33,927 nucleotides of DNA from a bacterium (GTDB taxonomy: Bacteria; Latescibacterota; Latescibacteria; Latescibacterales; Latescibacteraceae): the NCBI GenBank assembly GCA_021372535.1, contig JAJFUH010000115.1:1-33927 (forward strand). Direction: 5' to 3'. How positions within the stretch are numbered: the first letter of the stretch is position 1; every line of letters starts with the position of its first letter. Positions 4,301 to 23,297 of the stretch are shown here, in pieces. The notes beneath the pieces are model-generated. The model did no database searches. It was given only the letters and a program-made list of their open reading frames with translations, and was not told where the DNA came from. Position numbers and translations under genes: made by a program.

Positions 4301-4845
4301 TAGAACAGAACTTCTTCAGGAAACTGTTCAACAGCTCCGAAAGCAATCAGGACGAGTACACCGGAATGAATTTCTGGCGTCCTCCCGTATGGTGGCAGGC
4401 AATGGTTCTTGAAGACATGTTCGGTACGTACAAAAGCACGGGCCGTTATATAAAGGCCGGCGAAGGCAAACTGAAAGTGGCATGGAATGCGGAACTGCCC
4501 GAAAGCGGACAGTATGATATCTTCTTTTATACACAGAACATGCGCCGGATGGGAAGAGGCGGTCCGGGAAGAGGCGGTCCCGGTGGCGGCGGCGGCAACA
4601 GAGCCGGGGGCGCAGGCGGTGCAGGCGGCGGACAGCAGACAAGCGTTGTCAGCGACTTTCACTTCAGCGTTTACAGCGACGATGGTGTAGATGAGACGGA
4701 GCTCGATGTTTCCGAAGCCGAAACAGGATGGACGTATGTGGGAACCTATTATTTCTCACAGGGCGCCAGGAAAGTGGAGCTTTCGGATAAATCCAAAGGA
4801 CGGATTGTCTACGCCGATGCGATTAAATGGGTAAAGCGCAAATAG
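1393..4845 (+). CDS. ABC-2 permease fused to M1-peptidase-like and golvesin-like domains
   Basis: This 1150-residue inner-membrane protein has an N-terminal permease domain (about 1-290) with six or seven hydrophobic helices. A large soluble domain follows (about 295-860), with the beta-sandwich and helical layout of M1 aminopeptidases, including VEVPIQF near residue 560 and EQWYNGKGTPAF near 815. I find no HExxH zinc motif anywhere, so the peptidase fold is probably catalytically dead. The last ~120 residues resemble a golvesin C-terminal-like beta domain (GWTYVGTYYFSQGA, VYADAIKWV), split by a loop very rich in glycine (about 1053-1080). Start: AAAGGGA lies a few bases upstream of ATG 1393. 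Permease/M1 fusions are a known annotated class in FCB-group bacteria; the missing zinc site and the tail are the unusual points. It should act with the ATPase at 442-1332. Confidence 0.85.
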   Translation: MLSLSKIWTIALFETKTLLRSWFFRIFSLLAVGIIILLNIVLFVSSRSASWALRGIPSAIPYMNLLLLNVVQAVIALFLASDFLKYDRKLDSTEVIYVRSMSNVEYVLGKTLGIFMLFFGLNILILLTALIFNIFFIDVQPVAISYIVYPLLISIPTLIYIFGISFLCMVIMRSQALTVIVLLGYIAITLFFLGPKYHHLFDYMAYNVPFMYSDFVGFANTGVLLLHRGIYLSLGLGCIFFTILLFKRLPQSRLGTRLSLILAVAFTAGGFVLGGIYLSRIYSGRPLRAEMLTIFKQEGPKPVVSLTDCRLDLRHEGAVIDVTANLTVRNDTDAALDIYTFSLNPGLEVLNVENGGSKASFTRAAHLLRVKPSSQLLPGAVDSLIVHYRGSIDENACYVDVDEETREQNNRLFLYTIAKRYSFITPEYVLLTPETMWYPRAGVSSPETRGRDFIRFELKVTGNPALTPLSQGAVVDSSNGARTFRPEFPLSRLSLVIGNYEKKSVTTNNIEYNVYVKKGHDYFSQYFPDIKEKIPDIIKEAHQDYERNLNMTYSFKRLTLVEVPIQFFSYDRLWSTGQETVQPEQVLIAEKGIFLTNADFKRMRLFVGRGFRQSDATMTPEEIQTSLLRGFIQRTFSSDMMRNAMASFRRNISGSGFSLQRLFVNFLPLNPPNYEIFPNYYSFTNTIVSDKWPIFNKAVGNYISSKLQNSGPRFPRFFMGVSDEEKASGVLDTMNLGEILSDPEQSDIAETVLTLKVKSLFALIKARVGEEKFDKFLDDFLLANKFKKCTIDDFIKAMQEQFSFDPEPYLEQWYNGKGTPAFVVTDLKTSEVLDKDKTRYQVTFNVSNPDSVDGIISAQISSRGDRNPGMGRFMTFDAGQEPEYFIIVKGNQSKAVGIVVDQAPRSAHFDTFISQNIPITFDRRFGKPEPDKNSVLFEGERVLDRAPLLSLPGEIIVDNEDPGFEVQDRVEQNFFRKLFNSSESNQDEYTGMNFWRPPVWWQAMVLEDMFGTYKSTGRYIKAGEGKLKVAWNAELPESGQYDIFFYTQNMRRMGRGGPGRGGPGGGGGNRAGGAGGAGGGQQTSVVSDFHFSVYSDDGVDETELDVSEAETGWTYVGTYYFSQGARKVELSDKSKGRIVYADAIKWVKRK

Positions 4846-4872
4846 CGTATTTCAGGCATGAGGATAGTACAC

Positions 4873-6366
4873 ATGAACAGAAAACCGAACTTTTACAGTG
4901 CATTCTGGGTGATAGTCACGGTTGCCGGGGGGCTGATGTTTTCTCCTGCGGCGCCGGCAGCGGCCGATGTACTGACGCTGGAAAAATCACTGGAAATCGC
5001 GAAGTCAAACAGTCCCGACATCAAGCAGACCGAGCTTGACCTCGTCCAGAGCCGTGAATCCCTGAACGCCCAGAAAGCGGCGCTGAAATCGAATTTCAGC
5101 CTGAGTCTCAATCCTTTTTCATACAACAGCGACAGGACGTTCAACAATCTGTTCTCGTTGTGGAATACCAACAGGACGAGCACGTCATCAACCACGTTCA
5201 CCATATCCCAGCCGGTGACATGGAGCGATGGAACGCTGGCGCTTACGAACAAGCTCTCCTGGCAGAATTCATACAGCGAATATCAGGATGTCACGACCAA
5301 AACATATGACAACAACCTCTATATAAGCTACCAGCAGCCGCTGTTTACCTATAACACGACGAAGCTGCAGCTGCGTGACCTCGAACTCACTATGGAGAAC
5401 ACGGAGTACAGCTACGCCATCAAGAAATTAGCCCTCGAACAGAGTGTCACCCAGGCATTTTACGATGTCTACCAGCGGAAAATGGACCTCGATATAGCCG
5501 GTGAAGAGCTCAACAATCAGAAACAGAGCCATGACATCATCAAAAACAAGGTCGATGCCGGGCTCTCGGCTGCCGAGGAGCTCTACCAGGCGGAGCTGAA
5601 CCTTGCCAACAGCGAGCTGTCCGTACAGAATCAGCAGGAATCGCTCGATAACGCGCTCGATTCGTTCAAGATACTTCTCGGGATGTCGATCTACGATGAC
5701 ATTGCTGTCGACGCCGATGTGCAGATGAAAACGGTTGACGTCGATCTTAAAAAGGCCATCGATAACGGATTGAAAAGCCGCATGGAACTCCGTCAGCGTG
5801 AAATCAGCATAGAAAACGCGCTCAACAGCCTCACACGCGTGTCCGCACAGAATGAATTCAAAGGGAGCCTCACGCTCTCGTACGGAGTCATCGGGACCGA
5901 TGAGAATGTGGATGACCTTTTCAGCGCTCCAACCAAAAAACAGACTGTGGGGCTTACATTCAATATTCCGCTCTGGGACTGGGGCGAAAAGAAATCCCGG
6001 ATCAAGGCATCTCAGGCGAGTGTACAGAAACAGCGGTTGAATCTCGATGACCAGAGAACCAGCATAATCTCGGCAGTCAGAAGGTCTCACCGGAACCTTC
6101 AGAAGCTGGTCAATCAGATTGCAATCGCCGAGCAGAACGTCCGCAATGCCCAGCTGACCTACGAGATTAATCTGGAACGTTACAAGAACGGCGATCTGAC
6201 AAGCATGGACCTGAATCTTTACCAGGCGCAGCTTTCATCGAAAAAAACGGCGTATATTCAGACTCTGATAAATTATAAACTCGCTCTTCTCGATATGAAA
6301 ATTCTGTCACTATGGGATTTTGAAAAGAATCAGCCTGTTTTACCGGAAAATATAATAGATCGATAA
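4873..6366 (+). CDS. TolC-family outer membrane efflux protein
   Basis: This is the outer-membrane channel of a tripartite efflux system. The frame is open from ATG 4858, but GAGGA at 4860-4864 is correctly spaced for ATG 4873, giving 497 residues. A Sec signal peptide follows, with probable cleavage after SPAAPAAA. The mature protein has two outer-membrane-efflux repeats (about residues 35-235 and 255-480), each with long coiled helices rich in Q, N, L and A and a beta-strand insert with S/T/N-rich strands, as in TolC trimers. Length is normal for the family. It begins 27 nt after the permease/M1-like gene and ends 33 nt before the adaptor gene, so it is almost certainly cotranscribed. It could serve both RND pumps and the ABC modules of the cluster. 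Confidence 0.93.
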   Translation: MNRKPNFYSAFWVIVTVAGGLMFSPAAPAAADVLTLEKSLEIAKSNSPDIKQTELDLVQSRESLNAQKAALKSNFSLSLNPFSYNSDRTFNNLFSLWNTNRTSTSSTTFTISQPVTWSDGTLALTNKLSWQNSYSEYQDVTTKTYDNNLYISYQQPLFTYNTTKLQLRDLELTMENTEYSYAIKKLALEQSVTQAFYDVYQRKMDLDIAGEELNNQKQSHDIIKNKVDAGLSAAEELYQAELNLANSELSVQNQQESLDNALDSFKILLGMSIYDDIAVDADVQMKTVDVDLKKAIDNGLKSRMELRQREISIENALNSLTRVSAQNEFKGSLTLSYGVIGTDENVDDLFSAPTKKQTVGLTFNIPLWDWGEKKSRIKASQASVQKQRLNLDDQRTSIISAVRRSHRNLQKLVNQIAIAEQNVRNAQLTYEINLERYKNGDLTSMDLNLYQAQLSSKKTAYIQTLINYKLALLDMKILSLWDFEKNQPVLPENIIDR

Positions 6367-6399: not shown

Positions 6400-7449
6400 G
6401 TGAAACGTATAATCAGCCCTTTTTATGTGCTTGTGCTGTTCATGGCTTGCGGTAATCCCGACACGCAGGTAACAGTGGACGTCGCTTCGCCGGTTTCAGT
6501 GCAGGAAGTCACTTTGAAACCCATCGAGGAATATATCACCACCACCGGTACGGTCAAAGCGACTCAGGATGTCACCCTGAAAGCCGAAACCTCCGGATAC
6601 TACAAACTTGCAGTCAATCCCCGGACAAAGAAACCTTTTTCGCTCGGTGATCTGGTGAAAAAGGACGAGATTATCATCAATATCGAGAATGTCGAACAGG
6701 AAAATTCAATTAAAATTGATTCCCAGGTGCTCAGTCTCGATATCTCGAAACGTGAATACGAAAAACAGCAGTCGCTGTACGATAAAGGAGGAGTAACGCT
6801 CCGTGAGTTAAAGGATTCCGAAAAATCGTATATCGATTCGAAATACAGTTATGACAACGCCCTGATCCAGCTCTCCAAACTTAAAATAATCGCTCCGTTC
6901 GACGGGTATATCACCGATCTGCCGTATTACACACCGGGAGTGAAAATCGATTCGGGCACCGAGATGGTGCATATCATGGATTACCGTAAACTGAACATGG
7001 ATGTACAGCTCCCCGGAAGGTTCCTCGACCAGATAAAGAACGGGCAGCCCGTGCGCGTATCCAATTATACGATTCCTGACAAGGTCTTCCAGGGCGCGAT
7101 ATCGGAGGTTTCCCCTGCCATTGACTCGGAAAGCCGTACATTCAAGGCATATATAAACATCAACAATGAGGTCCTCCTCCTGAGACCCGGCATGTTTGTC
7201 AAGGCCGAGGTCGTCGTTGCCAGAAATGACAGCACCATCGTTATTCCCAAAAACATCATACTGTCAAGGGGTAACAGGAAGGTTGTATTCGCCGTGGAGA
7301 GCAGCACCGCGGTGGAGCGTGTCATCACCACGGGACTCGAGAATCCCGAAGAAGTCGAGGTCACTCAGGGAATAAAGTCCGGAGAACGGATTGTTGTCGA
7401 AGGCTTCGAGACTTTGCGGAATCGCGCAAAGGTAAAAATAATTCAGTAA
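6400..7449 (+). CDS. RND/ABC efflux periplasmic adaptor (membrane fusion protein), lipoprotein
   Basis: This periplasmic adaptor should link an inner-membrane pump to the TolC-like channel. The start is GTG 6400, set by AGGAG at 6388-6392. The N-terminus is a lipoprotein signal with lipobox FMAC and lipidated Cys17. Order of parts: barrel/lipoyl half (about 45-100), a short alpha-hairpin containing YEKQQSLYDKGGV (about 105-160), second lipoyl half with IIAPFDGYITDL (about 165-180), then beta-barrel and membrane-proximal domains with PGMFVKAEV (about 265). At 349 residues and with a short hairpin it matches compact HlyD/AcrA-type adaptors. It is the only adaptor gene seen for two RND proteins and two ABC modules, so it may be shared. 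Confidence 0.93.
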   Translation: MKRIISPFYVLVLFMACGNPDTQVTVDVASPVSVQEVTLKPIEEYITTTGTVKATQDVTLKAETSGYYKLAVNPRTKKPFSLGDLVKKDEIIINIENVEQENSIKIDSQVLSLDISKREYEKQQSLYDKGGVTLRELKDSEKSYIDSKYSYDNALIQLSKLKIIAPFDGYITDLPYYTPGVKIDSGTEMVHIMDYRKLNMDVQLPGRFLDQIKNGQPVRVSNYTIPDKVFQGAISEVSPAIDSESRTFKAYININNEVLLLRPGMFVKAEVVVARNDSTIVIPKNIILSRGNRKVVFAVESSTAVERVITTGLENPEEVEVTQGIKSGERIVVEGFETLRNRAKVKIIQ

Positions 7450-7582: not shown

Positions 7583-10500
7583 ATGAAAAAAATCGCACAG
7601 TTTTCAACAGACTATCCAATAACCGTTTTAATGTTTGTTCTGGCAATTTTCCTGCTCGGATACATATCGTTCAGCAAGCTGGGCATGGACCTTTTTCCCG
7701 ACATGAATAATCCGCGGATATTTATCGAACTGACCTCCGGGGAACGCCCGCCGGAGGAAATCGAGAAGCAGTTTGTGAAATCCATCGAGTCGCTCTCGAT
7801 CCAGCAGAAGGGCGCAGTCAACGTTTCATCGGTCTCGCGGACGGGTTCTGCCCAGATAACAGTTGAATATGCATGGGATACCAACATGGACGAGGCTTTT
7901 CTCGATCTCCAGAGAACCCTCACGTCATCATCCCAGAGCACCGATATCGACGAGCTGACAATCTCCCAGCATGATCCCAATGCCACACCGATCATCGTAC
8001 TCGGACTCTCCCACCCTACCATAACCGACATGGACGAGCTGCGGATGGTCGCCGAAAACTACCTCCGCAACGAGCTGATCCGCATGGAAGGCATCGCCGA
8101 TGTCAAACTCCTCGGCCAGGAGGAAAAAGAGGTGATCGTTGAAACGAACGATTATCTCCTCCAGGCTTACGGCGTTACCCCGTCCACCATTGCAAGCCGG
8201 ATTACCGAATACAACCGCAACATCTCCGGCGGCTCGGTCGTGGACATGGGACTCAAGTATATCATAAAGGGAGTCGGCGAACTCCAGTCTCTCGAAGATA
8301 TTCAGAATATCATCGTAACCTACAAGAGCGCAGCAGCGGCAACCGGCGCAGCAGCGACACAGTCTTCCGGAACAACCACCGAAAAGACGCCCGTTTTTCT
8401 CAAGGATATCGCCAAAATCTCGTTCCAGAACAAGAAACCGGACAATATCGTCAGGGTCAACGGAAAACGGTGTATCGGGCTGGCGATATACAAGGAGACA
8501 AAGTATAACACCGTCAATATCGTCAAAGACTTCCTCTCTAACCTCGAAACCCTGAGAAAAGCGCTCCCGGGCTACGATCTGACAGTCATCCAGAACAAAG
8601 GGCAGTTCATCACGAATTCGATCAACGAGGTCAAGCAGTCCGCGCTGATCGGTATCCTGTTTGCGGTGCTCGTTCTCTATGTATTTCTCCGGCGTTTCGG
8701 CGCAACCGCCATCATCAGCGCGGCGATACCGATTTCGATAGTAGCTACATTCAATATGATGTATTTCAAGGGACTTACGCTAAACATCATGACGCTTGGC
8801 GGGCTTGCTCTCGGCGCAGGAATGCTCGTGGACAACGCCATAGTCGTCATGGAAAACATTTTCCGGAATCTCGAATCCGGGCTCTCGCTCCGTGAGGCAG
8901 CCATCGATGGCACCTCACAGGTAAGCGGGGCAATAACCGCATCGACCATCACGACAATCGTTGTCTTTCTGCCGATCGTCTATCTCCACGGGACCGCGGG
9001 CGAGCTGTTCAAGGATCAGGCGTGGACGGTCGCGTTTTCGCTCCTGTCGTCTCTCGTGGTAGCCATGCTCATCATCCCGATGCTCAGCACACGGTTTCTC
9101 AGAACATCGGCTCATGACAAAAAACAGTCGATCCGTTTCCCGTTCTACAAGAAATTTCTGGAAGGCGTTCTCAGGATAAAATGGATCATGATAATTCTCA
9201 CCGTACTCATGATGGTGCTCGCATGGCAGCTCATTCCCCTTGTCGGCAGCGAATTCATGCCCAAATCCGACATGAACGAATACTCGATCGATCTCAAGCT
9301 GCCGGAAGGAACCGAACTGTATCGAACCGACAGTGTCGTTCAGAATATCGAGACTCGTCTCAAAGAGGCTCTGGGAAGCGATCTTCAGATGACCTACAGC
9401 GTTATCGGGCCGTCAGCCGAAATAAGCGGCGAAAGCTCGATCCTTGCCGATGAAAATACGGCATCCATCTCCCTGACACTGGACGCGAAGCATACCATTA
9501 CGTCGGATGCGGTTTTCGCACGGATAAATGCTGTGCTGGCGGATATTCCCGACATCGAGACTCAGGTGCGTCAGGTACAGACAGAGCTTGAGATGACCCT
9601 CGGGACTGAAACGGCGCCGATTGTCATCGAAATCCAGGGAGAGGACCTCGATCAGCTGCAGGCCCTTACCGAACAGGCGAAACAGCAGGTTGCATCGATC
9701 GGCGAGCTCTATAATGTTGAAACGAGCTTCGACAAGGGAAGGCCGGAAGTGGAAATCGTGCTCGACCGTGTCAGGGCGGGCTTGCTCAATATCGGTATAA
9801 ACACGCTCAGTTCGCAGCTCACGACCCAGTTGACGGGAGTCGACGCCGGCCAATGGGATAATCAGGGCGAAATGAGGGATATTGTGGTCAAACTGCCCGA
9901 TGTCACCCTGAGCCAGCTCGACAACATCACCATCGATAACAACGGTGAAAAAATACCGCTCTATGATATTACGGAAATCCGGAATATTCAGGCTCCGGTC
10001 GAGATCAACCGTGAAAATCAGGTTCGCATCGGAAAAATCACCGCCAACATTAATAAAACAAAACCACTCGACCAGGTTGTCGCCGAAATACATCAGAAAA
10101 TGAATGCCGTATCGTTCCCTCCCGAATATTCCTATGTCGTTAGCGGGGAAGAGCAGAAACGGAGGGAGGCGTTCGATAACCTTAAATTCGCCCTCATCCT
10201 GTCGCTTGTTCTCGTATACATGGTGCTGGCGTCACAGTTCGAATCGCTCATTCACCCGTTTACCATATTGCTTTCGATACCGCTTGCCGGCGTCGGCGCG
10301 ATACTGATCTTTTTCGTTCTGGGTAAATCGCTCAACATCATGGCATATATCGGTTTAATCATGCTCGTCGGGATCGCGGTCAACGATTCGATCATCCTGG
10401 TCGATGCTATTCTTCAACTGCAGCGTGAGGGACGCACCCGGATGGAGGCGATCATCGAAGCCGGTCAGCGGCGTATCCGCCCGATCATCATGACCAGCCT

Positions 10501-10690
10501 GACAACCATTCTCGCGCTCCTGCCGATGACATTCGGTTTCGGCGAGGGTTCCGAGCTTCGTTCGCCGATGGCGCTTGCGGTAATCGGGGGGTTGATTTCC
10601 TCGACGGTATTGACACTCGTGGTCATACCGTGTGTTTTTCATGTTCTCGACAGCCTCAGGGAAAAAGCATTCCCGAAGCCCAGGCAGTAG
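7583..10690 (+). CDS. RND efflux permease, HAE1-like (first pump)
   Basis: This 1035-residue inner-membrane RND pump has the usual 12 transmembrane helices and two large periplasmic loops, and ends soon after TM12. In TM4 the motif is LVDNAIVVMEN, with D417 matching the first proton-relay aspartate of AcrB and N418 in place of the second. In TM10 the AcrB lysine position reads VNDSIILVD (N934). This pattern is common in VDN-type RND pumps related to SwrC-like proteins. A short Ala/Ser/Thr low-complexity insert (AAAATGAAATQSSGTTTE) lies near residues 252-269 in the first periplasmic loop. It follows the adaptor by 133 nt and precedes the RND-ABC fusion gene by 256 nt. A heteromeric assembly with the second RND protein, as in MdtBC, is possible but not shown. 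Confidence 0.95.
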   Translation: MKKIAQFSTDYPITVLMFVLAIFLLGYISFSKLGMDLFPDMNNPRIFIELTSGERPPEEIEKQFVKSIESLSIQQKGAVNVSSVSRTGSAQITVEYAWDTNMDEAFLDLQRTLTSSSQSTDIDELTISQHDPNATPIIVLGLSHPTITDMDELRMVAENYLRNELIRMEGIADVKLLGQEEKEVIVETNDYLLQAYGVTPSTIASRITEYNRNISGGSVVDMGLKYIIKGVGELQSLEDIQNIIVTYKSAAAATGAAATQSSGTTTEKTPVFLKDIAKISFQNKKPDNIVRVNGKRCIGLAIYKETKYNTVNIVKDFLSNLETLRKALPGYDLTVIQNKGQFITNSINEVKQSALIGILFAVLVLYVFLRRFGATAIISAAIPISIVATFNMMYFKGLTLNIMTLGGLALGAGMLVDNAIVVMENIFRNLESGLSLREAAIDGTSQVSGAITASTITTIVVFLPIVYLHGTAGELFKDQAWTVAFSLLSSLVVAMLIIPMLSTRFLRTSAHDKKQSIRFPFYKKFLEGVLRIKWIMIILTVLMMVLAWQLIPLVGSEFMPKSDMNEYSIDLKLPEGTELYRTDSVVQNIETRLKEALGSDLQMTYSVIGPSAEISGESSILADENTASISLTLDAKHTITSDAVFARINAVLADIPDIETQVRQVQTELEMTLGTETAPIVIEIQGEDLDQLQALTEQAKQQVASIGELYNVETSFDKGRPEVEIVLDRVRAGLLNIGINTLSSQLTTQLTGVDAGQWDNQGEMRDIVVKLPDVTLSQLDNITIDNNGEKIPLYDITEIRNIQAPVEINRENQVRIGKITANINKTKPLDQVVAEIHQKMNAVSFPPEYSYVVSGEEQKRREAFDNLKFALILSLVLVYMVLASQFESLIHPFTILLSIPLAGVGAILIFFVLGKSLNIMAYIGLIMLVGIAVNDSIILVDAILQLQREGRTRMEAIIEAGQRRIRPIIMTSLTTILALLPMTFGFGEGSELRSPMALAVIGGLISSTVLTLVVIPCVFHVLDSLREKAFPKPRQ

Positions 10691-10946: not shown

Positions 10947-13900
10947 ATGACAGTTTTCAGAACCATCATTCAGCGCAAGACACTCGTAAGCATGTTTTTT
11001 ATCGCGTGTGTCCTTCTCGGATACATATCGTATAAACAGCTGCCGGTCGAACTTCTTCCCAATGCCGAGCTCCCCTATCTTTTCGTCACGGTTTCGGCTA
11101 CGCGCGAACTGGAGCCGGAATATATCGAAAAACAGGTCCTCATTCCCGTGGAGGCGGCTATCAGCACCCTCGAGGGGATTGACATGATCGAGTCTTCGGC
11201 TGACTCGCAGCGGGGAACCATTTATGTCTATTATAATCAGAATGTTAAAATAAAGTATGCTTATCTGAAGCTCCAGGAGAAAATCAACGAACTGGCATCG
11301 ACATTGCCGGAAGAGATCAGAATTCGGGTTGTCAAGGTCGATACCGTGCGGTTATCCAACACGTTCATGAGCCTCCAGGCAAGGGGCAGCGGCGGAATCG
11401 AACGCGTCCGGGCCGTTGTGGATGAAAAAATCGTCCCGAAACTGACCGCTGTTGACGGGATCGCGAATGTCGATGTCGTGGGCGGCACTGTAAAAGCAGT
11501 GGAAATACTGCTCAACGAAGAAGCCTGCCGTGAGCTCAAAATCACACCTGCGAGGGTACGGTCGCTCATATCACAGAACAACGAACAGAAGATGTATGTC
11601 GGCCCCGTTTACGAGAACGGAAGAATCCTGTCCGTCAATGTTTTTGCCGAATACACCGATGTTCGCGACCTTGAAGATATCATCGTGGTTCCCGAAGGGC
11701 CGGTACGCCTGAAAGACATCGCCGAGATTAATTTCGGCGGGAAACAGGAAACCTCGATCAGCAGAGTAAACGGCAAAGAGGCGATATCGCTCCAGCTTGT
11801 GCGGGATACGCAGACAAATCTCATCGAGCTTTCACATTCCGCAAAATCCGTTATCAGCAATCTGAACAAGGAATTAAAGTCTCAGGATGTCGAGATCGTG
11901 ATTCAGAGCAACAGCGCGGATGATATTGAAGATAATATCAACCTCATAAAGAAACTTGCAATTACCGGCGGTCTCCTCGCGGTGCTTATTCTCTGGTTTT
12001 TCCTTAAAAACCTGAAACTCGTCACCGTCATACTGCTTGCCATACCCATCTCGGTTTTTACGGCTTTCAATTTCTTTTATGCTTACAATATATCGATAAA
12101 CAGCCTTACGCTTATCGGGATAGCGCTTGCGGTCGGAATGCTCCTCGACAACAGTGTTGTCGTACTCGAAAACATATACCGCCTTATCTCGAAACATGTG
12201 GATTCCGATACCGCCGTGGTTCAGGGAACGAGCGAGGTCTGGCGGGCGATTGTGGCGGCGACGCTCACGACCATCATCGTTTTCGTACCGTTCCTTTTCT
12301 CGTCCGACTACCTCGTCCAGCTTATCGGCCGTCATATCGGCGTCTCGATAATTTCGACCCTCCTGGTCTCGCTTCTTATCGCCATGACCCTTGTCCCGAA
12401 TGTGACCCACATGTTCCTCACGAGAAGGAAATCCGACAAAGGATTCGTATTCAACAAAATCTCGCAGCGGAACCGGCTTCTCCAGATATACAATCTGCTC
12501 CTCAAATCGGCAATTCGTTTCCCGGTGCGGACGATTCTCGGCGCCGTCATAATGTTTTTTACCACGCTGCTGTTATGCATCATGTTCAGCAAAGATGTCC
12601 CCAGCGAAATCGAATTGAAGCAGTTCAGCCTTTATGTCACCATGGCCCAGGGTTCAACGCTCGAAATGACCGACACCGTGGTGAAGGAGCTGGAGGGTAA
12701 ATTCACGGACATCGAAGAAATACAGGATGTAATTTGCACCGTCTACGAAGCCGAAGCCAATATCACGATAATGCTGAAAGACAATTTCGAGGATATCAAG
12801 CACCGGTCGATCGCTCAGATAAAGCAGGATATTCAGAAACGTATCGAGAACTTCAGGGCCGCGGATGTCAGCCTGTCCGAGCCCCGGTCGAGCTCACGTT
12901 TCGGGGGAGGAATGTCGAGAAATCCCATGTCTTCGTTCGAGCGGATGTTCGGTATCGGCACCCCCCAGGAAAAAGTGATCCTCAAGGGAAGCGATTTTTA
13001 TATGCTCCGCACGGTTGCGGACGATATCATTTATTATCTCAACAACCTCGATTCGATCAACAATGGCGCCCGCTCGAACATTCCGGGCGACCGTCCGGAA
13101 ATACACCTGTATCTCGATAACCAGACGCTCAGCATATACAATATCACCAAAAATTCGCTCGCATCGGAGCTCGCATCGTTCGGAAACGAGTCCTCCTCGG
13201 ATGTGAAATTCAAACAGGGCAACGAGGAATACGATATCGTGATCCGCAACGGCGAAACCGAGACGGATAAATCCGTTGATGATCTGAAAGTCCTCCGCGT
13301 TCCGGATCAGTCGGGAAACGAATATGACCTTCAGGACATCAGCCGTGTCGTGTATGCGACGGGGAAATCGACAATTAAAAGGATCAATCAGGAGAAACAG
13401 GTAGAAATCACATACAGTTTCATCGATGAAATCAATGATTCGAAAACCCTGCTTCAGGTATCCCGTGACGAGATCAGCGAGCTGATAGCCGGTCTCTCGA
13501 TTCCGCCGGGGATAGCGGTGGAAGTGACCCACGACGAAACGTCTCTCAACGAGTTTTATTTCCTGATTGCGGCGGCTTTTATCCTCATTTACATGATACT
13601 TGCCTCCGTATTCGAATCGCTGACGACCCCGCTGGTTATGATGTTCACCATACCGCTGGCGGCTGTCGGGGCGTTCTGGGCTCTCATTTTCACCGGCAAT
13701 TCGATATACAATGCCAACTCACTGATAGGTCTTTTGATTCTTCTCGGTGTTGTTGTCAATAACGGAATCATACTGATAGATTATACCCGTATTCTCCGGA
13801 CCCGCAGGTTCTCGCGCTTCAGAGCGCTTATGATGGCCGGTCAGGCTCGCGTCCGCCCCATTCTCATCACCGCGATCACAACCATAGTCGCCATGGTCCC

Positions 13901-15671
13901 GCTGGCCATGGGCAGTACCGAGCGTGTCTCACGTATCGGCGCGCCCTTTGCCATAACGGTCATCGGCGGGCTGTCTCTGAGCACGATTTTTACGCTCGTG
14001 TTCATCCCGACCGTCTATTCCGGGATGGAATCACTCCTCGGATGGATACGAGGGCTTAACTGGAAAATCAAGGTTCTCCAGCTTGCGGCATGTATCGGCG
14101 GAGCCTTCTTCATTTACACTGCCATCAACAGTATTATCTGGAAATTCGCCGACTTCTTCGTTCTGCTGATGGCGATACCGGGCGCCACCTACTTTCTCAT
14201 GCTCAATCTCCGCAGGGCAAAAACAGAGTATATTCAGTCCGACAGACCGTTAACCATAAAGGCCAGACGAGTCGTAAAAATATATGACGACTACAGCAGA
14301 TTCGTCCGGGAATGGAAAAAAGGAGAGCGGCTGAATAATCTCTACGGTATTGCAAAAGATAACCGTTCGTGGAAAGATTTCGGCAACTACCAGTGGCAGC
14401 TGCTGCTTTTAGGATTCATGATCTATTTCACGTATTTCTACATTGAGGATCACCTGTGGCTCTTTATTCTGTCCCATTTCGTCTACTTTGCCGTGCTGTT
14501 CCTGCTTACACCGGTCCGGATTCTTCTCGCGAACTTCGCGGAAAAAACGGGTAAACAAGGCTACGCGAAAGGAGCCGCATGGCTGCATTCAATCGTGCTG
14601 CTCGGCATACCGGCAGGCAATATCATCCTCTTCCATTTCAGGGAATTCAAACTGCCGACAATCATTTTTATCACTATTCTCTGGTATTCGGCCCTCATCG
14701 TATATATAACATCGAACAGGCTCCACAGAGGCAGGGTCAACATCATGCGGCTGACCGGACGGTTTGCCGATGTACGGAAGACATTTTACCGTATCGTACA
14801 GGCCATCCCGATCATCGGCAGGAAAAAACGGCCGTTCAATGCACTCGACGGGGTTTCATTTGAAATCAAGAGCGGTATGTTCGGCCTGCTCGGTCCCAAC
14901 GGCGCCGGTAAAACGACCATCATGAGAATCATCTGCGGCATTTTCCATCAGTCGCTCGGCACCATCACCGTAAATGACATCGACTTCACGGAAAAACGTG
15001 AGGAACTCCAGGGCCTGATAGGATACCTGCCCCAGGAATTCGGCACCTATGAAAATATGACCGCATACGAATTTCTGGATTATATCGCCATCCTCAAAAA
15101 CATCTACGACAAGGAAAAACGCGACAGTATCGTTCAGTATGTAATTTCCTCGGTTCATCTCGACGAGCATAAAAACCAGAAAATCGGCTCCTTCTCGGGC
15201 GGTATGAAACAACGTATGGGAATTGCGCTGACCCTGCTTCACCTGCCGCGCATCCTGGTTGTCGATGAACCGACCGCCGGTCTCGATCCGCGTGAACGCA
15301 TCCGTTTCAGGAATCTTCTCGTGGATTTGAGCAAAGAGCGAATCGTTATCTTCTCGACTCACATTATCGAGGATATTTCAAGCTCCTGTAATAATGTTGC
15401 GGTATTGAACAAGGGGAGGGTGTTCTATCTCGGTTCTCCTTCGAACATGATACAGCTTGCCCAGGAGAAAGTATGGCAGTTTGATGTCACCGAAACCGAA
15501 TTCCAGCGCCTGCGAACAAAACTCAGGATAATCCACCACATGAGCTATGAAAACACCATACGGGTGCGCTGTCTGGCCGATTCCGAACCGTACGCGGGAG
15601 CGAAGCACGTCCAGCCAACGCTCGAGGATGCCTACCTGTGGCTCCTTGGCGAGAATGTTACAGCGACCTGA
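10947..15671 (+). CDS. RND efflux permease fused to extra membrane helices and a C-terminal ABC ATPase
   Basis: This single 1574-codon frame encodes three modules. Residues 1 to about 1030 are a full RND pump (12 TM, two periplasmic loops), with TM4 motif LLDNSVVVLEN (D401, N402) and TM10 motif VVNNGIILID (N938, N939). About 1040-1260 holds roughly six more hydrophobic helices (near 1044-1062, 1067-1087, 1152-1166, 1170-1195, 1211-1232, 1238-1258), with a basic cytoplasmic loop at 1093-1150. About 1295-1574 is a complete ABC NBD: Walker A G1316-T1324, signature FSGGM 1416-1420, Walker B D1440-E1441, switch H1472, and tail QPTLEDAYLW. No stop or frameshift separates the modules. It lies 20 nt before a small ABC-2 permease gene. 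Direct fusion of an RND pump to an ABC ATPase is very unusual. A Gly/Ser/Arg-rich insert (SSSRFGGGMSRNP) lies in the second half of the periplasmic region sequence. Confidence 0.9.
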   Translation: MTVFRTIIQRKTLVSMFFIACVLLGYISYKQLPVELLPNAELPYLFVTVSATRELEPEYIEKQVLIPVEAAISTLEGIDMIESSADSQRGTIYVYYNQNVKIKYAYLKLQEKINELASTLPEEIRIRVVKVDTVRLSNTFMSLQARGSGGIERVRAVVDEKIVPKLTAVDGIANVDVVGGTVKAVEILLNEEACRELKITPARVRSLISQNNEQKMYVGPVYENGRILSVNVFAEYTDVRDLEDIIVVPEGPVRLKDIAEINFGGKQETSISRVNGKEAISLQLVRDTQTNLIELSHSAKSVISNLNKELKSQDVEIVIQSNSADDIEDNINLIKKLAITGGLLAVLILWFFLKNLKLVTVILLAIPISVFTAFNFFYAYNISINSLTLIGIALAVGMLLDNSVVVLENIYRLISKHVDSDTAVVQGTSEVWRAIVAATLTTIIVFVPFLFSSDYLVQLIGRHIGVSIISTLLVSLLIAMTLVPNVTHMFLTRRKSDKGFVFNKISQRNRLLQIYNLLLKSAIRFPVRTILGAVIMFFTTLLLCIMFSKDVPSEIELKQFSLYVTMAQGSTLEMTDTVVKELEGKFTDIEEIQDVICTVYEAEANITIMLKDNFEDIKHRSIAQIKQDIQKRIENFRAADVSLSEPRSSSRFGGGMSRNPMSSFERMFGIGTPQEKVILKGSDFYMLRTVADDIIYYLNNLDSINNGARSNIPGDRPEIHLYLDNQTLSIYNITKNSLASELASFGNESSSDVKFKQGNEEYDIVIRNGETETDKSVDDLKVLRVPDQSGNEYDLQDISRVVYATGKSTIKRINQEKQVEITYSFIDEINDSKTLLQVSRDEISELIAGLSIPPGIAVEVTHDETSLNEFYFLIAAAFILIYMILASVFESLTTPLVMMFTIPLAAVGAFWALIFTGNSIYNANSLIGLLILLGVVVNNGIILIDYTRILRTRRFSRFRALMMAGQARVRPILITAITTIVAMVPLAMGSTERVSRIGAPFAITVIGGLSLSTIFTLVFIPTVYSGMESLLGWIRGLNWKIKVLQLAACIGGAFFIYTAINSIIWKFADFFVLLMAIPGATYFLMLNLRRAKTEYIQSDRPLTIKARRVVKIYDDYSRFVREWKKGERLNNLYGIAKDNRSWKDFGNYQWQLLLLGFMIYFTYFYIEDHLWLFILSHFVYFAVLFLLTPVRILLANFAEKTGKQGYAKGAAWLHSIVLLGIPAGNIILFHFREFKLPTIIFITILWYSALIVYITSNRLHRGRVNIMRLTGRFADVRKTFYRIVQAIPIIGRKKRPFNALDGVSFEIKSGMFGLLGPNGAGKTTIMRIICGIFHQSLGTITVNDIDFTEKREELQGLIGYLPQEFGTYENMTAYEFLDYIAILKNIYDKEKRDSIVQYVISSVHLDEHKNQKIGSFSGGMKQRMGIALTLLHLPRILVVDEPTAGLDPRERIRFRNLLVDLSKERIVIFSTHIIEDISSSCNNVAVLNKGRVFYLGSPSNMIQLAQEKVWQFDVTETEFQRLRTKLRIIHHMSYENTIRVRCLADSEPYAGAKHVQPTLEDAYLWLLGENVTAT

Positions 15672-15691: not shown

Positions 15692-16414
15692 ATGAATTTC
15701 AGCCGGCTTTTAAAAAATACCTTTCACCTGATATACGGCGTAATCCGGTACAACCTTAAAATTATCTTCGCCAACAAGTTCCTGTATTTTCTTCTTGCGG
15801 CTGTCACCATTTTTGTCGGAGTGACCGTACTGAATCTGGTGAATGCGAACTCGAATCCGACCGAAGCGACCGGCTTCTGGCTCCTCCTTGTGCCGGGTAT
15901 CCTGCTCGTCTTTTACCCGACAGCGTTCGGAATCCAGAACGATATCGATACGCGTATGATCGAGATTCTTTTCGGAATACCCAATTACCGTTACAAGATA
16001 TGGCTTGTCAGGCTCATGCTCATCTTTCTGGTGACGCTCGTGATTCTGACGGTGCTCACTGTGGTCTTCTCGGTCGTTCTCAAAGATGTTTCCATAACCA
16101 TGATGGTATTCCACATCATGTTTCCGGTCATTTTCACCGGCAGCCTCGCGTTCATGTTTTCAACCATCGTCCGTAACGGCAACGGCACCGCCATTGTCAT
16201 GGTCATCATCGGCATCGCATTCTGGATCGCGAAAGGACAGATCGGCAATTCCGAGTGGTTCCTCTTCCTCAATCCATACAACATGCCGGCCAACATGAAT
16301 GAAGCGGTCTGGCAGGAAACTGTGCTCAACAACAGAATGTATCTCTTCGCAGGAACGGTTATCGCAGTGCTCTATGGTTTGTTCAACCTCCAGAACCGTG
16401 AGAAATTTATCTGA
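15692..16414 (+). CDS. ABC-2-type permease subunit (small)
   Basis: This inner-membrane permease has about six hydrophobic helices in 240 residues, the size and layout of ABC-2-type membrane subunits. The start is ATG 15692, with AAAGGA at 15679-15684. The same frame opens earlier at 15638, but that would overlap the fusion gene and lacks a ribosome binding site. Motifs include YPTAFGIQNDIDTRMIEILF, close to the ABC-2 coupling region with its conserved acidic and arginine residues, and FLFLNPYNMP before the last helix. It follows the RND-ABC fusion by 20 nt, so the fused ATPase is its likely energy source. It ends the transport operon; no clear terminator is seen in 16415-16591. Confidence 0.85.
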   Translation: MNFSRLLKNTFHLIYGVIRYNLKIIFANKFLYFLLAAVTIFVGVTVLNLVNANSNPTEATGFWLLLVPGILLVFYPTAFGIQNDIDTRMIEILFGIPNYRYKIWLVRLMLIFLVTLVILTVLTVVFSVVLKDVSITMMVFHIMFPVIFTGSLAFMFSTIVRNGNGTAIVMVIIGIAFWIAKGQIGNSEWFLFLNPYNMPANMNEAVWQETVLNNRMYLFAGTVIAVLYGLFNLQNREKFI

Positions 16415-16591: not shown

Positions 16592-17791
16592 TCAGGCGAA
16601 CAGCTCGCGCGCCCTTCCGATATTTTCGGTAAGATTTATCCCATGAACACACTTCACGGCGCATTCATCGCAATCACCGCACATCTCCACACGATGTTCG
16701 CGGGGAAGAGCCTTATAATTCTCCCTGGCAAGCTCCATATCGCCATATCCGAACGCATATCCAAGGCAACGGTTTATCTCGCTGACTCTCACGCCTTTCG
16801 GGCACTGCTCTTTGCATCCCGAGCACCCGGCGACACCACGGCAGTAACGGGTTTTAACATCCTCACAGTACCGCCGTATGATATTCATGTCATCGAGTGT
16901 CAGTTTCTTTCCCATGACCGCAAGATTGTCATCGAGATGGTCGAAAGCGGTCATGCCGGGGATTATCGTATCCACATACTGATCGTCGAGCACCCATTTG
17001 ATGAGCGCCTGCTGCGGAGTTGTCGTGCTGTTCTTGTCTGCGCGGATATCATCATACTGTACCCGTGTACTCGGCGGCCAGCTCATGGTGATAAGATTCT
17101 TCATCGCAATGATGGCGATACCGTTTTCACGGGCTTTTTTAATGGATTGTGCAACAGTTTTGGGGGAATAGTAATTATAACCGGTCAGAATCGCCTGCCA
17201 GAATTTACTCTCTATCGCCGCATCGAAAGCCTCGGTTTCAAAATTGTGTGTCGAAAATCCCACAAAACGGGTCTGCCCCTTTTTACGGGCATCATCGAAG
17301 ATTTTCATCACCGTTTCGTTGAGAATCTCTGCCCGGGCGTCCGTTTTATGGAGCAGGAGGAGGTCGACATGATCGGTCTGGAGTCTTTCGAGAGATTTTT
17401 TGATCTCATCGGGGATCGCTTCATAATTCTTGCTCAGCCCGACCTTCGTTGTGAGGAATACCTTATCCCGTTTGGTTTTCATCACCGTTCCGACAATCTC
17501 CTCATTGACGCCGTTCATGTAGACATTGGCGGTATCGATATAGTTGATCCCGGAATCGATTGCGGCATGAATGAGCTCGGCATCACGTGTGTTCATCGTC
17601 CCGAAGCCGAGTTCGGTCACCTTGCAGCCGGTCGAACCAAGCTCCCGAAATACAAGACGATTGAATTTACCGGATTCCGCGGCATGAATCCTCCGTGGAG
17701 AAAAAAAGTCGGCGGCAAAACCCGCACCGGCAGCCGTACCGCCGATAACAATGCCCTTTTTTAAAAACTCTCTCCTGTTCGGTGTTTCCAT
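16592..17791 (-). CDS. Tat-exported aldo/keto reductase with C-terminal 4Fe-4S domain
   Basis: This 399-residue oxidoreductase starts at the ATG whose complement ends at 17791. AAGGAG lies just upstream of it and inside the longer frame that opens at 17806, so the shorter start is preferred. The N-terminus is a twin-arginine signal (NRREFLKKG followed by an Ala/Gly-rich stretch). The AKR barrel carries the full catalytic tetrad D86, Y91, K116 and H148. The C-terminal ~90 residues hold two cysteine clusters, CSGCKEQCP and CGDCDECAVKC, of ferredoxin type. Export by Tat fits a protein that folds around Fe-S clusters and NAD(P)H in the cytoplasm. Such Fe-S AKRs are common in sugar-degrading uncultivated bacteria; the substrate is unknown. 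It is separated from the transport operon by 177 nt and points toward it. Confidence 0.9.
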   Translation of the reverse strand: METPNRREFLKKGIVIGGTAAGAGFAADFFSPRRIHAAESGKFNRLVFRELGSTGCKVTELGFGTMNTRDAELIHAAIDSGINYIDTANVYMNGVNEEIVGTVMKTKRDKVFLTTKVGLSKNYEAIPDEIKKSLERLQTDHVDLLLLHKTDARAEILNETVMKIFDDARKKGQTRFVGFSTHNFETEAFDAAIESKFWQAILTGYNYYSPKTVAQSIKKARENGIAIIAMKNLITMSWPPSTRVQYDDIRADKNSTTTPQQALIKWVLDDQYVDTIIPGMTAFDHLDDNLAVMGKKLTLDDMNIIRRYCEDVKTRYCRGVAGCSGCKEQCPKGVRVSEINRCLGYAFGYGDMELARENYKALPREHRVEMCGDCDECAVKCVHGINLTENIGRARELFA

Positions 17792-18095
17792 GGTGTTCTC
17801 CTTCATTCGTCACAAATTATTATGGTAAATTATGTTTATATACAATCTCATGACCTTCTTGATGTTCAAGGTTAAATATTCCCGCATGTCATCATTATAG
17901 GATAACCGTTCGGTAATAAATAAAAATAATCATTACCACAGTGCAACTGTTTTCTCAATTTTCATGTGCTGCGGTCATCTGTTTCACAGGATATGGAAAT
18001 CCCTTCAAAACGTACGGCATACATATTCAGAAATTCACAGCGGAATTGTATTTATCGGGATACATTATAATTTGTCACCATATATCGTTGCAACA

Positions 18096-18232
18096 CGACC
18101 TATTCACAAAATTTAATATAACGAGGATTTTCGCGGATTTATTTTTCGTACCTGATCGATGCAATATTGTAGGGGTAATTCATGAATTACCCCTATTCCG
18201 TGCCTTCGTGGTTAATATTTTCATGAATAACC
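18096..18232 (+). repeat. Dispersed intergenic repeat, copy A (interrupted by a palindrome)
   Basis: The left module (about 18102-18140) contains ATTCACAAAAT and GGATTTTCGCGGATTT. The right module (18204-18230) reads CTTCGTGGTTAATATTTTC then ATGAATAA. Matching modules occur at 21562-21740 and 32769-33137 in the same orientation. Here a perfect 24 bp palindrome sits between the modules. The repeat lies about 300 nt upstream of the PhzF-like gene. Confidence 0.7.
18171..18194. repeat. Perfect 24 bp palindrome
   Basis: The half AGGGGTAATTCA is followed directly by its exact reverse complement TGAATTACCCCT. It sits between the two modules of dispersed repeat copy A. Similar GGGGYAATTCATGAATTRCCCC units occur as REP-like repeats in many bacterial genomes. 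It could also be a dimeric regulator site, but its place inside a repeat favours a mobile or repeat origin. Confidence 0.75.
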
Positions 18233-18289
18233 TCCATGACTATAGATAGCCACAACGAAGGATGAAAAATGTATGCAGGCTGTACATGG

Positions 18290-18313
18290 ATTCCCGATTA
18301 AAGATTCGGGAAT
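18290..18313. repeat. REP-like hairpin ATTCCCGA...TCGGGAAT
   Basis: Arms ATTCCCGA (18290-18297) and TCGGGAAT (18306-18313) enclose an 8 nt loop and are followed by GACAG. The same type of hairpin (GGATTCCCG...CGGGAATGAC) occurs inside the MITE-like element near 27880-27904. The rest of 17792-18537 holds no convincing gene. A frame from GTG 17941 lacks a ribosome binding site and runs through the repeats. Confidence 0.6.
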
Positions 18314-18537
18314 GACAGCGTTACAGGGACTCCTGACACCAAGCCGGGGCTTCAGCATCGGGAACCATAGATGCATTTACAGATAAATCCGGGGTAAATA
18401 GTGTTCAATTTTTTGAATGCAGTGTTGAATTTTTCAGTATAACCGTAAATATTTTTTATATATTATATGTATATGACAGTAACATTGCGATACTTATTGA
18501 GTACAGGATATTCTCAGGAAAGAAAAGGAGCGCCACG

Positions 18538-19329
18538 ATGAGTATACCAGTTTTTCAGGTCGATGCCTTTACCGATAAACCATTTTATGGTAATCCTGCG
18601 GCTGTATGCATATTACCGGAACCGCGTGATAAAAAGTGGATGCAGCTTGTCGCCCGTGAAATGAATCTCTCCGAGACCGCGTTTCTGCACCGGCGAGGAG
18701 ACCATTTCAATCTGCGGTGGTTCACCCCGGCTGTCGAGGTCGATCTGTGCGGGCACGCCACACTGGCAAGCGCACATATTCTGTGGGAAACCGGTATAAT
18801 GGACAAGCATGAACAGGCGCGGTTCGATACCCGGAGCGGAATGTTGACGGCCGATTTAAGGGACAGGATGATCGAACTGAACTTTCCGGCAGTGCCCGAT
18901 GAGCCTTCAGGAGCCCCTTTCGAGCTGTGTCAGGCTCTGGGCATCAAACAGGGTTATATCGGCAAAACAAAATTCGATTATCTTGTTGAAGTTGATTCGG
19001 AAAAAACGGTACGAGACCTCAGTCCGGATTTTTCACAGTTAAAGACCATACCTGTCCGCGGTATCATTGTCACCGCTCCGGCGTCTTCTCCGGAATATAA
19101 TTTTGTCTCACGGTTTTTTGCTCCGGGCGCGGGTATTGACGAGGACCCGGTCACCGGATCGTCTCATTGCAGTTTAGGGCCGTTCTGGAAACGTAAAACC
19201 GGCAGGAGCGAATTTGTCGCCTGTCAGCTCTCGGAGCGCGGCGGCATCGTCCATGTCCGTGTTGACGGCGACCGGGTATATATCGGAGGGCAGGCGGTTA
19301 CAGTGCTTCACGGAGAGCTTACCGATTAA
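18538..19329 (+). CDS. PhzF-family isomerase/epimerase-like protein
   Basis: This cytoplasmic 263-residue protein has the two-lobed PhzF fold. Conserved family motifs are QVDAFTDKPFYGNPAAV at the N-terminus, NLSETAF with the catalytic glutamate E46, VDLCGHATLA with H73, and IDEDPVTGSSHC in the second lobe. Length is slightly short of the usual ~280-300 residues because lobe two is compact, but no motif is missing. AAAGGAG at 18524-18530 sets the start. Family members catalyse isomerisations (PhzF) or are of unknown function, and most genomic copies, like this one, have no phenazine genes nearby. TTGCGA (18485-18490) and TATTCT (18509-18514) form a weak possible promoter. The gene converges with the PL8 lyase gene, 23 nt apart. 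Confidence 0.92.
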   Translation: MSIPVFQVDAFTDKPFYGNPAAVCILPEPRDKKWMQLVAREMNLSETAFLHRRGDHFNLRWFTPAVEVDLCGHATLASAHILWETGIMDKHEQARFDTRSGMLTADLRDRMIELNFPAVPDEPSGAPFELCQALGIKQGYIGKTKFDYLVEVDSEKTVRDLSPDFSQLKTIPVRGIIVTAPASSPEYNFVSRFFAPGAGIDEDPVTGSSHCSLGPFWKRKTGRSEFVACQLSERGGIVHVRVDGDRVYIGGQAVTVLHGELTD

Positions 19330-19352
19330 CACCGATTAAACGAGATGGTTTT

Positions 19353-21491
19353 TTATAACTTCACTCGCTGCATTACGCTCTTTCCCGCATACATGTCGCC
19401 CGGTAAATCGAAGATGACCGTCATCGGCGATTTTCCGTCGCGCCGTACGACTACCGCTACGGTCATTTCCCGGTTCACGGGATTTGAAACCGAGATTTCA
19501 ATGGTATCCTTCAATTCCTTCACGAGCAGAAGGCAGGGCTTTTCGGCTCCGATCTCAAGGTTCTCCGCGACCCGCAGGCTGCCGGGAGAATAGAACGCTA
19601 TCCCCGTAATCCCGAGTCCTTTGTGACGGACGGCCTGTATTTCCGGTTCGTTCGACAGTATTTCAACCGGCGAGGCGCCTTTTTCATACCGGGCAACCGA
19701 GGCAAGTGAAACACCCGGAGAGACAATATAGGCATAACGGGCCTCTCTGGGTGATTTCCCGTGGTCGAACCATACGGTACATACATCGCGGGAAACATTC
19801 TCTTTCGAATACATGTGGTTGATGCTCCACCAGTCGCCGGTCTGAGCATCGTTGGTGAGACGTAACTGCGCGGGCTCGGGGAAAATGTACGCGGTGCTGT
19901 CGTGATACACCCATGCGGCATCGGTAAAACTATGGCTGCCGCGGCTGACAGTCCGTGAGTCTTTCCCGTTCGAGACGGTTAAATCTCCCTTGAGAAAACA
20001 CTGGTTGACCGTTGTCACCACGGGATTGTCCGAAGAACAGGTTATTCCCGCGCCGAGACAGACGAATTCGTCATCGAAGAAGAACCATGCCTTGCGGGCG
20101 AAGAGACCGTCACGTTCAAAGTCGAACGCTGCCATCCCGTACATGCCATCCGAGACACCCCCGGCAAACGGACGCGTCCCCTTTATGCATATTTTACCCG
20201 CGAGCTCCGGTGTCAGTTCGACTGTCGTCCCGGGAATTTTCTGCCAGTCCCACACGGGGAAAATGTCATGATATTCCCAGTCGGTACGCATGATATACGT
20301 GCACCCGTCGGCAAGATGGTGGCTCTTGAGGCCCTCGTCGTTAGCCGGATTGTCGGTGTTGAGGAGACGGTTTGAAAACATCCGCGCCGAGGCGTAATAG
20401 TCCGGACGGTGATGGGTCATGATGTCTCCGCGCCAGAAGTGACGGTTTCCGGTCAACGGTGCGGTGTTTCCTCCTTCGAGACGGGCGAGCAGATCGCGGT
20501 ATCCGGTTTCACGGCCCGTGGGAATTTTGAGCATGTTTTCGACAATCGGGCGAAGGTAACCGGCGCTTGGGTTCGTTCCCTGTCTTCGCGTTATACCCCG
20601 CCCCGTGGCGCCGTAATCCTTGGTCGAACACCGTATCATCCACTGGCAGCCGTCCAGAATCAAGCCGTTCAATATCCCGATTTTATCAGCGGGAAACTCG
20701 AACCGCGTGCCTGTGACAACCGTCGCGAGCTCCGAGCAGTTCGAGGCAAACACAGCCCCGTAACCGTGGTTGTACAGAAGAGCGCCGTGCTGGTGAAAAC
20801 TGAAGTCGGGCTGAATCCCCTCCTCCATCGATATCCGTATTTCGCCGGTAATCCTGTTCAGGGCTTCGGATACAACCTGCGGGTTGTTTTCCAGTATGCC
20901 GCGCATGACGGTGATGTTTCCCACATCGGCAAGGTTTGCCCCGGTCATGCCGAGTTTCGCCCGGGTGAGGATTTCCACACCCTTTGTCCGTTGGGTGTCA
21001 TCCAGTTCACCATCGATGAGAAGAAGTACCTGGGCAAGCCTTCCCGGAACACCGATGACGTTCCACCACCAGTTCGGATTCTGATAATCCTTGCCGAGCC
21101 AGTGATCGAGGCCGGCAAAAACGGCAACTCGAAGCTTCGGGTCGCCGCGCAGCGCAGATGACGGGCTTTCGTACCCCTGCGCAAGGGTCAGCAGATATGA
21201 AAGGTGTTTGAACGTTGCCCAGTTGGCACGGTTCTGGTCGGTGTAAAGAACATCCTCCCATGTGCCGTCCGGCTTTTGAGCTGCGACAAGCCCGTCAACC
21301 TGCTCATTATCGACTTTTTCCAGGAGCGGGTCGAGCAACCGCTGCCTGACCGTATCCATGTCACGATCAGCTTCTTTCGAAGACACCGTCGAGCGTTCCT
21401 GAGCATAACATGGTATGGAATACAGGCTCCCAAACATGATGACGGCGGCACCAATCGACAGTAAATAAGCAAGAACGCGGGCTTTTTTCAT
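19353..21491 (-). CDS. Polysaccharide lyase family 8 (chondroitin/hyaluronate/xanthan lyase type), secreted
   Basis: This 712-residue exported lyase starts at the ATG complementary to 21489-21491, preceded by AAAGGAA; an upstream in-frame start at 21530 is less likely. A Sec signal peptide ends near CYAQE. The N-terminal alpha/alpha-toroid carries WWWN, TGAN with N186, the HQHG...YNHGYG block with H235 and Y244, GRGITRR with R298, and NDEGLK with E386. Their spacing matches Asn175, His225, Tyr234, Arg288 and Glu371 of Pedobacter (Flavobacterium) chondroitin AC lyase as I recall them. The second half is the usual beta-sandwich. PL8 enzymes cleave uronic-acid polysaccharides (chondroitin, hyaluronan, xanthan) by beta-elimination; which one is used here cannot be told. 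The gene is transcribed alone toward the PhzF-like gene. Confidence 0.9.
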   Translation of the reverse strand: MKKARVLAYLLSIGAAVIMFGSLYSIPCYAQERSTVSSKEADRDMDTVRQRLLDPLLEKVDNEQVDGLVAAQKPDGTWEDVLYTDQNRANWATFKHLSYLLTLAQGYESPSSALRGDPKLRVAVFAGLDHWLGKDYQNPNWWWNVIGVPGRLAQVLLLIDGELDDTQRTKGVEILTRAKLGMTGANLADVGNITVMRGILENNPQVVSEALNRITGEIRISMEEGIQPDFSFHQHGALLYNHGYGAVFASNCSELATVVTGTRFEFPADKIGILNGLILDGCQWMIRCSTKDYGATGRGITRRQGTNPSAGYLRPIVENMLKIPTGRETGYRDLLARLEGGNTAPLTGNRHFWRGDIMTHHRPDYYASARMFSNRLLNTDNPANDEGLKSHHLADGCTYIMRTDWEYHDIFPVWDWQKIPGTTVELTPELAGKICIKGTRPFAGGVSDGMYGMAAFDFERDGLFARKAWFFFDDEFVCLGAGITCSSDNPVVTTVNQCFLKGDLTVSNGKDSRTVSRGSHSFTDAAWVYHDSTAYIFPEPAQLRLTNDAQTGDWWSINHMYSKENVSRDVCTVWFDHGKSPREARYAYIVSPGVSLASVARYEKGASPVEILSNEPEIQAVRHKGLGITGIAFYSPGSLRVAENLEIGAEKPCLLLVKELKDTIEISVSNPVNREMTVAVVVRRDGKSPMTVIFDLPGDMYAGKSVMQRVKL

Positions 21492-21561
21492 CTCGGAAAT
21501 TCCTTTTTTAAATGTAATCTGCCAAATCATGTAACGAACAGGAATTCATTTAACCAGACCC

Positions 21562-21740
21562 ATTCACAAAATATAATAGAACACGGATTTACGCGGATTG
21601 GACGGATTTAGGTGGATTTTATTTTTTATTTACATATTTTTTGGTGTTAATGTTTATTAATTGTTAATGATAGTATAAATAATATGTTATCTAAATATGT
21701 GTCTTTGTGTCTTTGTGGTTAAATATTTTCATGAATAATA
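21562..21740 (+). repeat. Dispersed intergenic repeat, copy B (uninterrupted)
   Basis: The left module, with ATTCACAAAATATAATAG and CACGGATTTACGCGGATT (21562-21599), is joined by an AT-rich middle to the right module TCTTTGTGGTTAAATATTTT plus CATGAATAAT (21710-21739). This copy has no obvious insertion and serves as the reference form for copies A and C. It fills most of 21492-21883, about 140 nt upstream of the Tat-type sugar isomerase gene. Confidence 0.7.
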
Positions 21741-21768
21741 CGTGCTGAAAACAATACCATCGGAAATT

Positions 21769-21799
21769 TTGCAGCTTGATTTTTTTACCAAACTATAAT
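21769..21799 (+). promoter_or_regulatory. Possible sigma70-type promoter
   Basis: TTGCAG (21769-21774) and a perfect TATAAT (21794-21799) are separated by 19 bp, 84 nt upstream of the isomerase start. The spacing is longer than ideal and the region is AT-rich, so this is only a candidate. Confidence 0.3.
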
Positions 21800-21883
21800 A
21801 TATACGTTACAACACGTTTACCGAACAGTAAAATCTTGGATAGCAGTATCACTTTACCCACTCATTTCATAGAGAGGTAATCA

Positions 21884-23285: not shown

Positions 23286-23297
23286 TGAACCGTTAAA

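Follow-up and report, generated by a model that had tools for sequence, protein, structure and literature searches.

On the forward strand of the window (the whole 33,927-nucleotide stretch of DNA that was analysed), positions 10947-15671 encode a protein of 1574 amino acids, here called F, in which three parts are fused into one polypeptide: an RND permease domain, a linker predicted to hold six membrane helices, and an ABC ATPase domain (NBD2). The fusion is real and conserved, and the catalytic sets of both halves are intact. Tripartite exporters fall into classes according to which engine sits in the inner membrane (ABC, RND or MFS), and a polypeptide that merges ABC and RND fits no class. 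We found no description of an RND-ABC fusion architecture in the open-access literature; each part of F is a known family, and the combination, together with a membrane insertion inside the NBD, matches none of the systems compared below. The fusion makes testable whether ATP hydrolysis can feed, gate or drive an RND pump. We give about an even chance to the reading that F and its operon partners form one combined machine, namely a heteromeric ABC exporter and an RND tripartite pump, likewise heteromeric, joined by a tether, in which ATP-driven export at the inner membrane would feed the RND part.

Conservation and spread of the fusion protein

The single open frame of 1574 codons reported in the sequence-only reading was confirmed by an ORF check, and the motifs cited there were found in place: D401, the Asn pair 938-939, Walker A GPNGAGKTT (residues 1316-1324), FSGGM (1416-1420), D1440-E1441 and H1472. 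The RND permease domain is full-length (residues 1-1025; 10947-14021, forward strand). In Pfam, ACR_tran matches residues 4-1025 over profile positions 2-1018 of 1021 (E 7.5e-164), covering two repeats and the periplasmic porter regions, and the best sequence match of the domain in the PDB is MdtB (E 1.6e-70), with MexB and AcrB also related. ABC_tran matches residues 1300-1444 (E 3.1e-27), and the stretch from RND to NBD, which carries the six predicted helices, is about 270 residues long. Thirty homologues with the same domain order were aligned, all of them between 1557 and 1625 aa. In these fusions the TM4 acidic residue (D401, at the AcrB D407 position; 12147-12149, forward strand) is invariant and the Arg/Thr of TM11 (RP(I/V)..T motif) are kept, and the NBD motifs are conserved without loss (Walker A, 14892-14918; Q-loop; signature, 15192-15206; Walker B DE, 15264-15269; H-loop, 15360-15362; forward strand).

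The architecture recurs in other genomes and phyla. Searches with the linker among genomes of the window's own phylum returned long open frames in genome after genome, and with a linker profile 31 of 64 genomes were positive. Of these 31, 27 have a frame without interruption over 1573 codons or more; in G002, G013 and G027 a contig end cuts it short, and in the draft genome G022 the frames are broken. Among 395 sampled genomes of Bacteroidota, the phylum of Chryseosolibacter, 6 have the fusion. The phylum to which the Aminicenantes genome belongs gave 7 positives in 297, one of the seven being cut by a contig end. Intact fusion frames are present in the single-contig genomes G019 and G009 and in the cultured isolate Chryseosolibacter histidini. 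A plasmid search with the linker gave no match. No stable split form was seen among loci of several phyla; the few cases of a broken or short frame go back to a contig end or to a frame break in a draft assembly (L021/G022 and L045). When closely related pairs were compared, synonymous change far exceeded non-synonymous change in the segments compared along F, including the linker and the insertion. An assembly or frame artefact, in which the loss of a stop codon had joined two genes, could appeal to the breaks in the few draft genomes; it has next to no chance of being right and is rejected, refuted by the homologues, as a frame of 1557-1625 aa is shared by 30 aligned proteins and also occurs in genomes assembled as one contig and in a cultured isolate, and by the low non-synonymous change across the RND-NBD junction.

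Linker helices and an interrupted ATPase domain

Hydropathy and two AlphaFold models agree with the earlier count of about six extra helices and arrange them as two plus four. The first two, TM13 and TM14, lie at about residues 1043-1088 (14073-14210, forward strand), and the other four at about residues 1142-1260. Positively charged residues are commoner in the loops predicted to be cytoplasmic (0.224 vs 0.167), in weak agreement with the topology. The linker is conserved and has invariant residues. The sequence-only reading had likened the extra helices to an ABC membrane half, a likeness that we reject: a Pfam search with 21 linker homologues gave no significant match, the predicted fold of the linker had no Foldseek match in the PDB at E<=0.001, and the linker profile, compared by hhalign with the two ABC-2 halves of its own operon, reached probabilities of 0.1% and 0.7%, that is, no match. 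The extra helices resemble no known domain.

Between linker helices 2 and 3 lies a motif with the consensus I-x-I-x-N-L-T-K-I-Y (about residues 1103-1113; 14253-14285, forward strand), in which the Lys and the Tyr (K1111 and Y1113) are invariant. It looks like strand beta1 of an NBD with its A-loop tyrosine, and the downstream ATPase domain begins at the next strand. A 13-column score matrix, built from 22 independent true proteins of the partner ATPase NBD1 (described below), placed its best score at this site, out of about 1560 positions, in 28 of the 30 fusions; the site was not the best in the window's own F or in L059, both of which have a more divergent strand. Once the strand was joined to the downstream NBD, the match to the NBD1 profile reached the N-terminus and its score rose from 334 to 344 bits. 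The structure models, which are of fragments and single chains, agree with these two tests: the segment forms a strand (pLDDT about 86 over its first part) when residues 1000-1574 are modelled, whereas modelling just the linker leaves it without structure (pLDDT under 50).

Because beta1 and the invariant A-loop tyrosine precede the last four helices, NBD2 is, by sequence and models together, split after its first strand by a four-helix membrane insertion (residues 1114-1294; 14286-14828, forward strand), with the rest of the domain at residues 1295-1574 (14829-15668, forward strand). About 200 residues, including the four TM helices, separate Y1113 from Walker A, and F has no contiguous NBD from beta1 and the A-loop to Walker A. 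An earlier description of a complete NBD after the helices therefore stands for the catalytic motifs, all of which are present there, and falls for the first strand and the A-loop tyrosine. ABC-2 exporters with NBDs of the ABCA/GldA/NosF type (ABCA3/ABCA4, NosDFY) provide the best matches of NBD2 and likewise have two ABC-2 halves; unlike theirs, the NBD of the fusion has an RND pump attached, and four membrane helices interrupt it after the first strand. An ABC ATPase with a four-helix membrane insertion would be an unusual link of nucleotide binding to membrane helices. The beta1 motif is also present (VLEVRHLEKVYG) in a very divergent fusion at L104:4251-9041 (RND 32% and NBD 44% identity) that has the same architecture; the family is wider than the searches show.

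Operon partners and family history

F is encoded in a series of seven genes, all on the forward strand: the partner ABC ATPase NBD1 (442-1332), which is the sister of the fused NBD2; an ABC-2 membrane half that also carries a large M1-peptidase-like domain and, at its C-terminus, a Golvesin_C domain (1393-4845; the pseudo-M1 permease); a TolC-type outer-membrane channel (OEP; 4858-6366); a periplasmic adaptor, or membrane fusion protein (6400-7449); the partner RND permease RND1 (7583-10690; 1035 aa), which is the sister of the fused RND domain; F itself; and perm2, an ABC-2 membrane half of 240 aa counted from its ATG (15692-16414; the ORF opens at GTG 15638). Two ABC-2 type halves are thus encoded beside the NBDs, and two sister RND genes occur with one adaptor. 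This gene order is repeated in about 30 loci of several phyla, and in several clades of the window's phylum the TolC gene was not found there; in L063-L077, from several families of the window's phylum, the operon is without it. In L105 and L107, NBD1 and the M1 permease are transcribed divergently from the adaptor-RND1-fusion-perm2 genes and still adjacent to them; the M1 permease of L107 comes as two frames. Several relatives have a 4-bp overlap of RND1 and F, which suggests translational coupling of the two.

The perm2 profile matches the N-terminal membrane part of the 1393-4845 protein (hhalign probability 90%, E 1.6e-6), and relatives of perm2 and of the M1 permease reach the ABC2_membrane families in Pfam. 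Judged by these profiles, the real ABC-2 halves are perm2 and the N-terminal domain of the 1393-4845 protein, each with its own gene. Pfam detected no FtsX or MacB_PCD family in F, perm2 or the M1 permease. The M1-like domain is probably no active peptidase, since HEXXH is absent in 29 homologues, and an active M1 peptidase was rejected on this ground. Besides the M1-like domain and the C-terminal Golvesin_C domain, the protein has a glycine-rich stretch.

Like their fused counterparts, NBD1 keeps the NBD motifs and RND1 keeps the TM4 Asp and the TM11 Arg/Thr, in a motif table some rows of which are fusion proteins that stand in where a locus had no NBD1 or RND1. A tree that included other NBDs of the genome groups all NBD2 domains together (99/96), with NBD1 as their sister (both together, 99/95), and places the truncated stand-alone NBD L007 of the genome inside NBD1. 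The RND tree has one group of fused RND domains and one of RND1, which are sisters (95/97); their branching patterns are nearly mirror images, and in either group the Aminicenantes copy joins the same members of the window's phylum. A single origin of the fusion is probable, and its parts have been passed on together, by inheritance and at times by transfer. A further stand-alone NBD of 230 aa, 59% identical to NBD1, lies at L112:8054-8746 (G000, contig C234), and no ABC-2 or RND partner of the fusion family was found near it. The neighbouring genes at 16592-33927 look unrelated and include genes for aldo/keto reductase, PhzF-like, polysaccharide lyase 8, xylose-isomerase-like, DUF4185-like, PKD, DUF4861, DUF362 and SIS domain proteins.

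Possible ways of joining ATP hydrolysis to the ion gradient

Across several phyla the fusion always belongs to one and the same export operon of six or seven genes, which suggests one machine running on two energy sources; a link between the two sources, raised in the sequence-only reading, is the natural reading. In the combined machine, the ABC-2 exporter would be heteromeric both in its ATPases (NBD1 and the fused NBD2) and in its membrane halves (perm2 and the pseudo-M1 permease), and NBD2 would be its covalent tie to an RND pump composed of two different subunits (RND1 and the fused RND domain), the adaptor and, as a rule, TolC. By hydrolysing ATP, the ABC part would take substrate across the inner membrane or out of it and pass it to the RND trimer at its periplasmic entry; the trimer would expel it through the adaptor and TolC on a proton (or sodium) gradient, and the tether would fix place and stoichiometry. 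RND heterotrimers exist, for example MdtBC (PMC8277102), and the MdtB2C heterotrimer is the active form (PMC12802153), a precedent for a two-subunit RND trimer; in a trimer of the MdtB2C kind, a single fused subunit would bring in a single NBD2, and this would pair with one NBD1. MdtABC is also alike in having an adaptor and two sister RND permeases in one operon, and in providing, with MdtB, the best PDB match of the RND domain. It is unlike the fusion operon in being without an ABC ATPase, ABC-2 permeases and linker helices, and MdtB keeps the TM10 Lys where the fusion has Asn.

Such a relay is the simplest reading of the gene set, from which we infer physical assembly, stoichiometry and two-stage transport. 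In its favour, about 30 loci bring together, in the same order, every part of a full ABC-2 transporter and a full RND tripartite pump, and in L105 and L107 NBD1 and the pseudo-M1 permease have been turned round and yet remain adjacent. Catalytic residues are conserved in both NBDs and both RNDs, the membrane halves in perm2 and the M1 permease are homologous, and both NBD1/NBD2 and RND1/fused RND are sister pairs, the RND1 and F genes overlapping by 4 bp in several relatives. However, sister pairs and synteny fit any heteromeric assembly, relay or otherwise, several clades have no TolC gene in the operon, and a tether without functional coupling would give an identical sequence picture.

It is rather unlikely that ATP hydrolysis by NBD2 instead drives or gates the RND cycle directly, via the six linker helices, to give an ATP-powered or ATP-gated RND pump; we are equally doubtful that the motion of the NBD is passed mechanically to the RND transmembrane domain in one machine that couples ATP and the ion gradient. 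The NBD is covalently joined to RND TM12 via two helices, with four more between the A-loop and Walker A, and nucleotide-dependent motion could pass straight to membrane helices because the NBD is both tied to TM12 and interrupted. Asn at the position of AcrB K940 in both RND subunits (in F, Asn938 of the TM10 pair N938-N939; 13758-13763, forward strand) could likewise be taken as a loss in the proton relay. However, the same Asn occurs in three unfused RNDs of the genome (L002, L004 and L005), so the TM10 Lys is no defining feature of the wider RND family, the fusion shows no special proton-relay loss, and such a loss is unsupported as a sign of ATP drive. According to a review (PMC8277102), every characterised RND pump draws on a proton or sodium gradient, and an acidic residue in the membrane is central to this. 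Both RND subunits of the operon retain the TM4 Asp and the TM11 Arg/Thr. The fusion shares these residues and a full-length ACR_tran domain with the HAE-1 RND pumps AcrB and MexB, which differ from it in having no ABC domain (AcrB also has the TM10 Lys and is a homotrimer), and its sequence gives no sign that the ion gradient has been given up. Full ABC-2 halves are, moreover, encoded alongside, which a mere driver of the RND pump would not need.

Mechanotransmission of the MacB kind is unlikely. Here the ABC part would carry out no transport across the inner membrane, and its ATP cycle would move the periplasmic pseudo-M1/Golvesin_C domain, which would extract periplasmic or membrane-anchored cargo or push it into the RND pump. 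ATP-driven work in the periplasm has a precedent in MacB (PMC5985334), and the 1393-4845 protein has a large M1-like domain after its membrane part that, given the missing HEXXH, probably binds rather than cuts. MacAB-TolC is also alike in that an ABC ATPase works with an adaptor and TolC. Yet MacB combines NBD and TMD in a single polypeptide, has four TM helices and works without an RND partner (PMC5985334 and general knowledge), whereas the fusion operon includes an RND pump, has membrane halves of the ABC-2 type and shows no MacB fold; the membrane part of the 1393-4845 protein matches ABC-2 families, unlike the four-helix MacB type, and the M1-like domain is placed in the periplasm by inference.

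In the case of a plain tether, two independent pumps of one operon would have their number and place fixed with no functional coupling. The complete catalytic set in each half agrees with this, as does the Pfam picture, in which NBD2 and the RND domain each look like normal family members. We nevertheless hold it to be improbable, as no stable split form occurs among the loci of several phyla and a linker with invariant residues, threaded through the NBD fold, is more than a simple tether needs. The presence of the fusion in the cultured and sequenced Chryseosolibacter histidini makes the system open to study.
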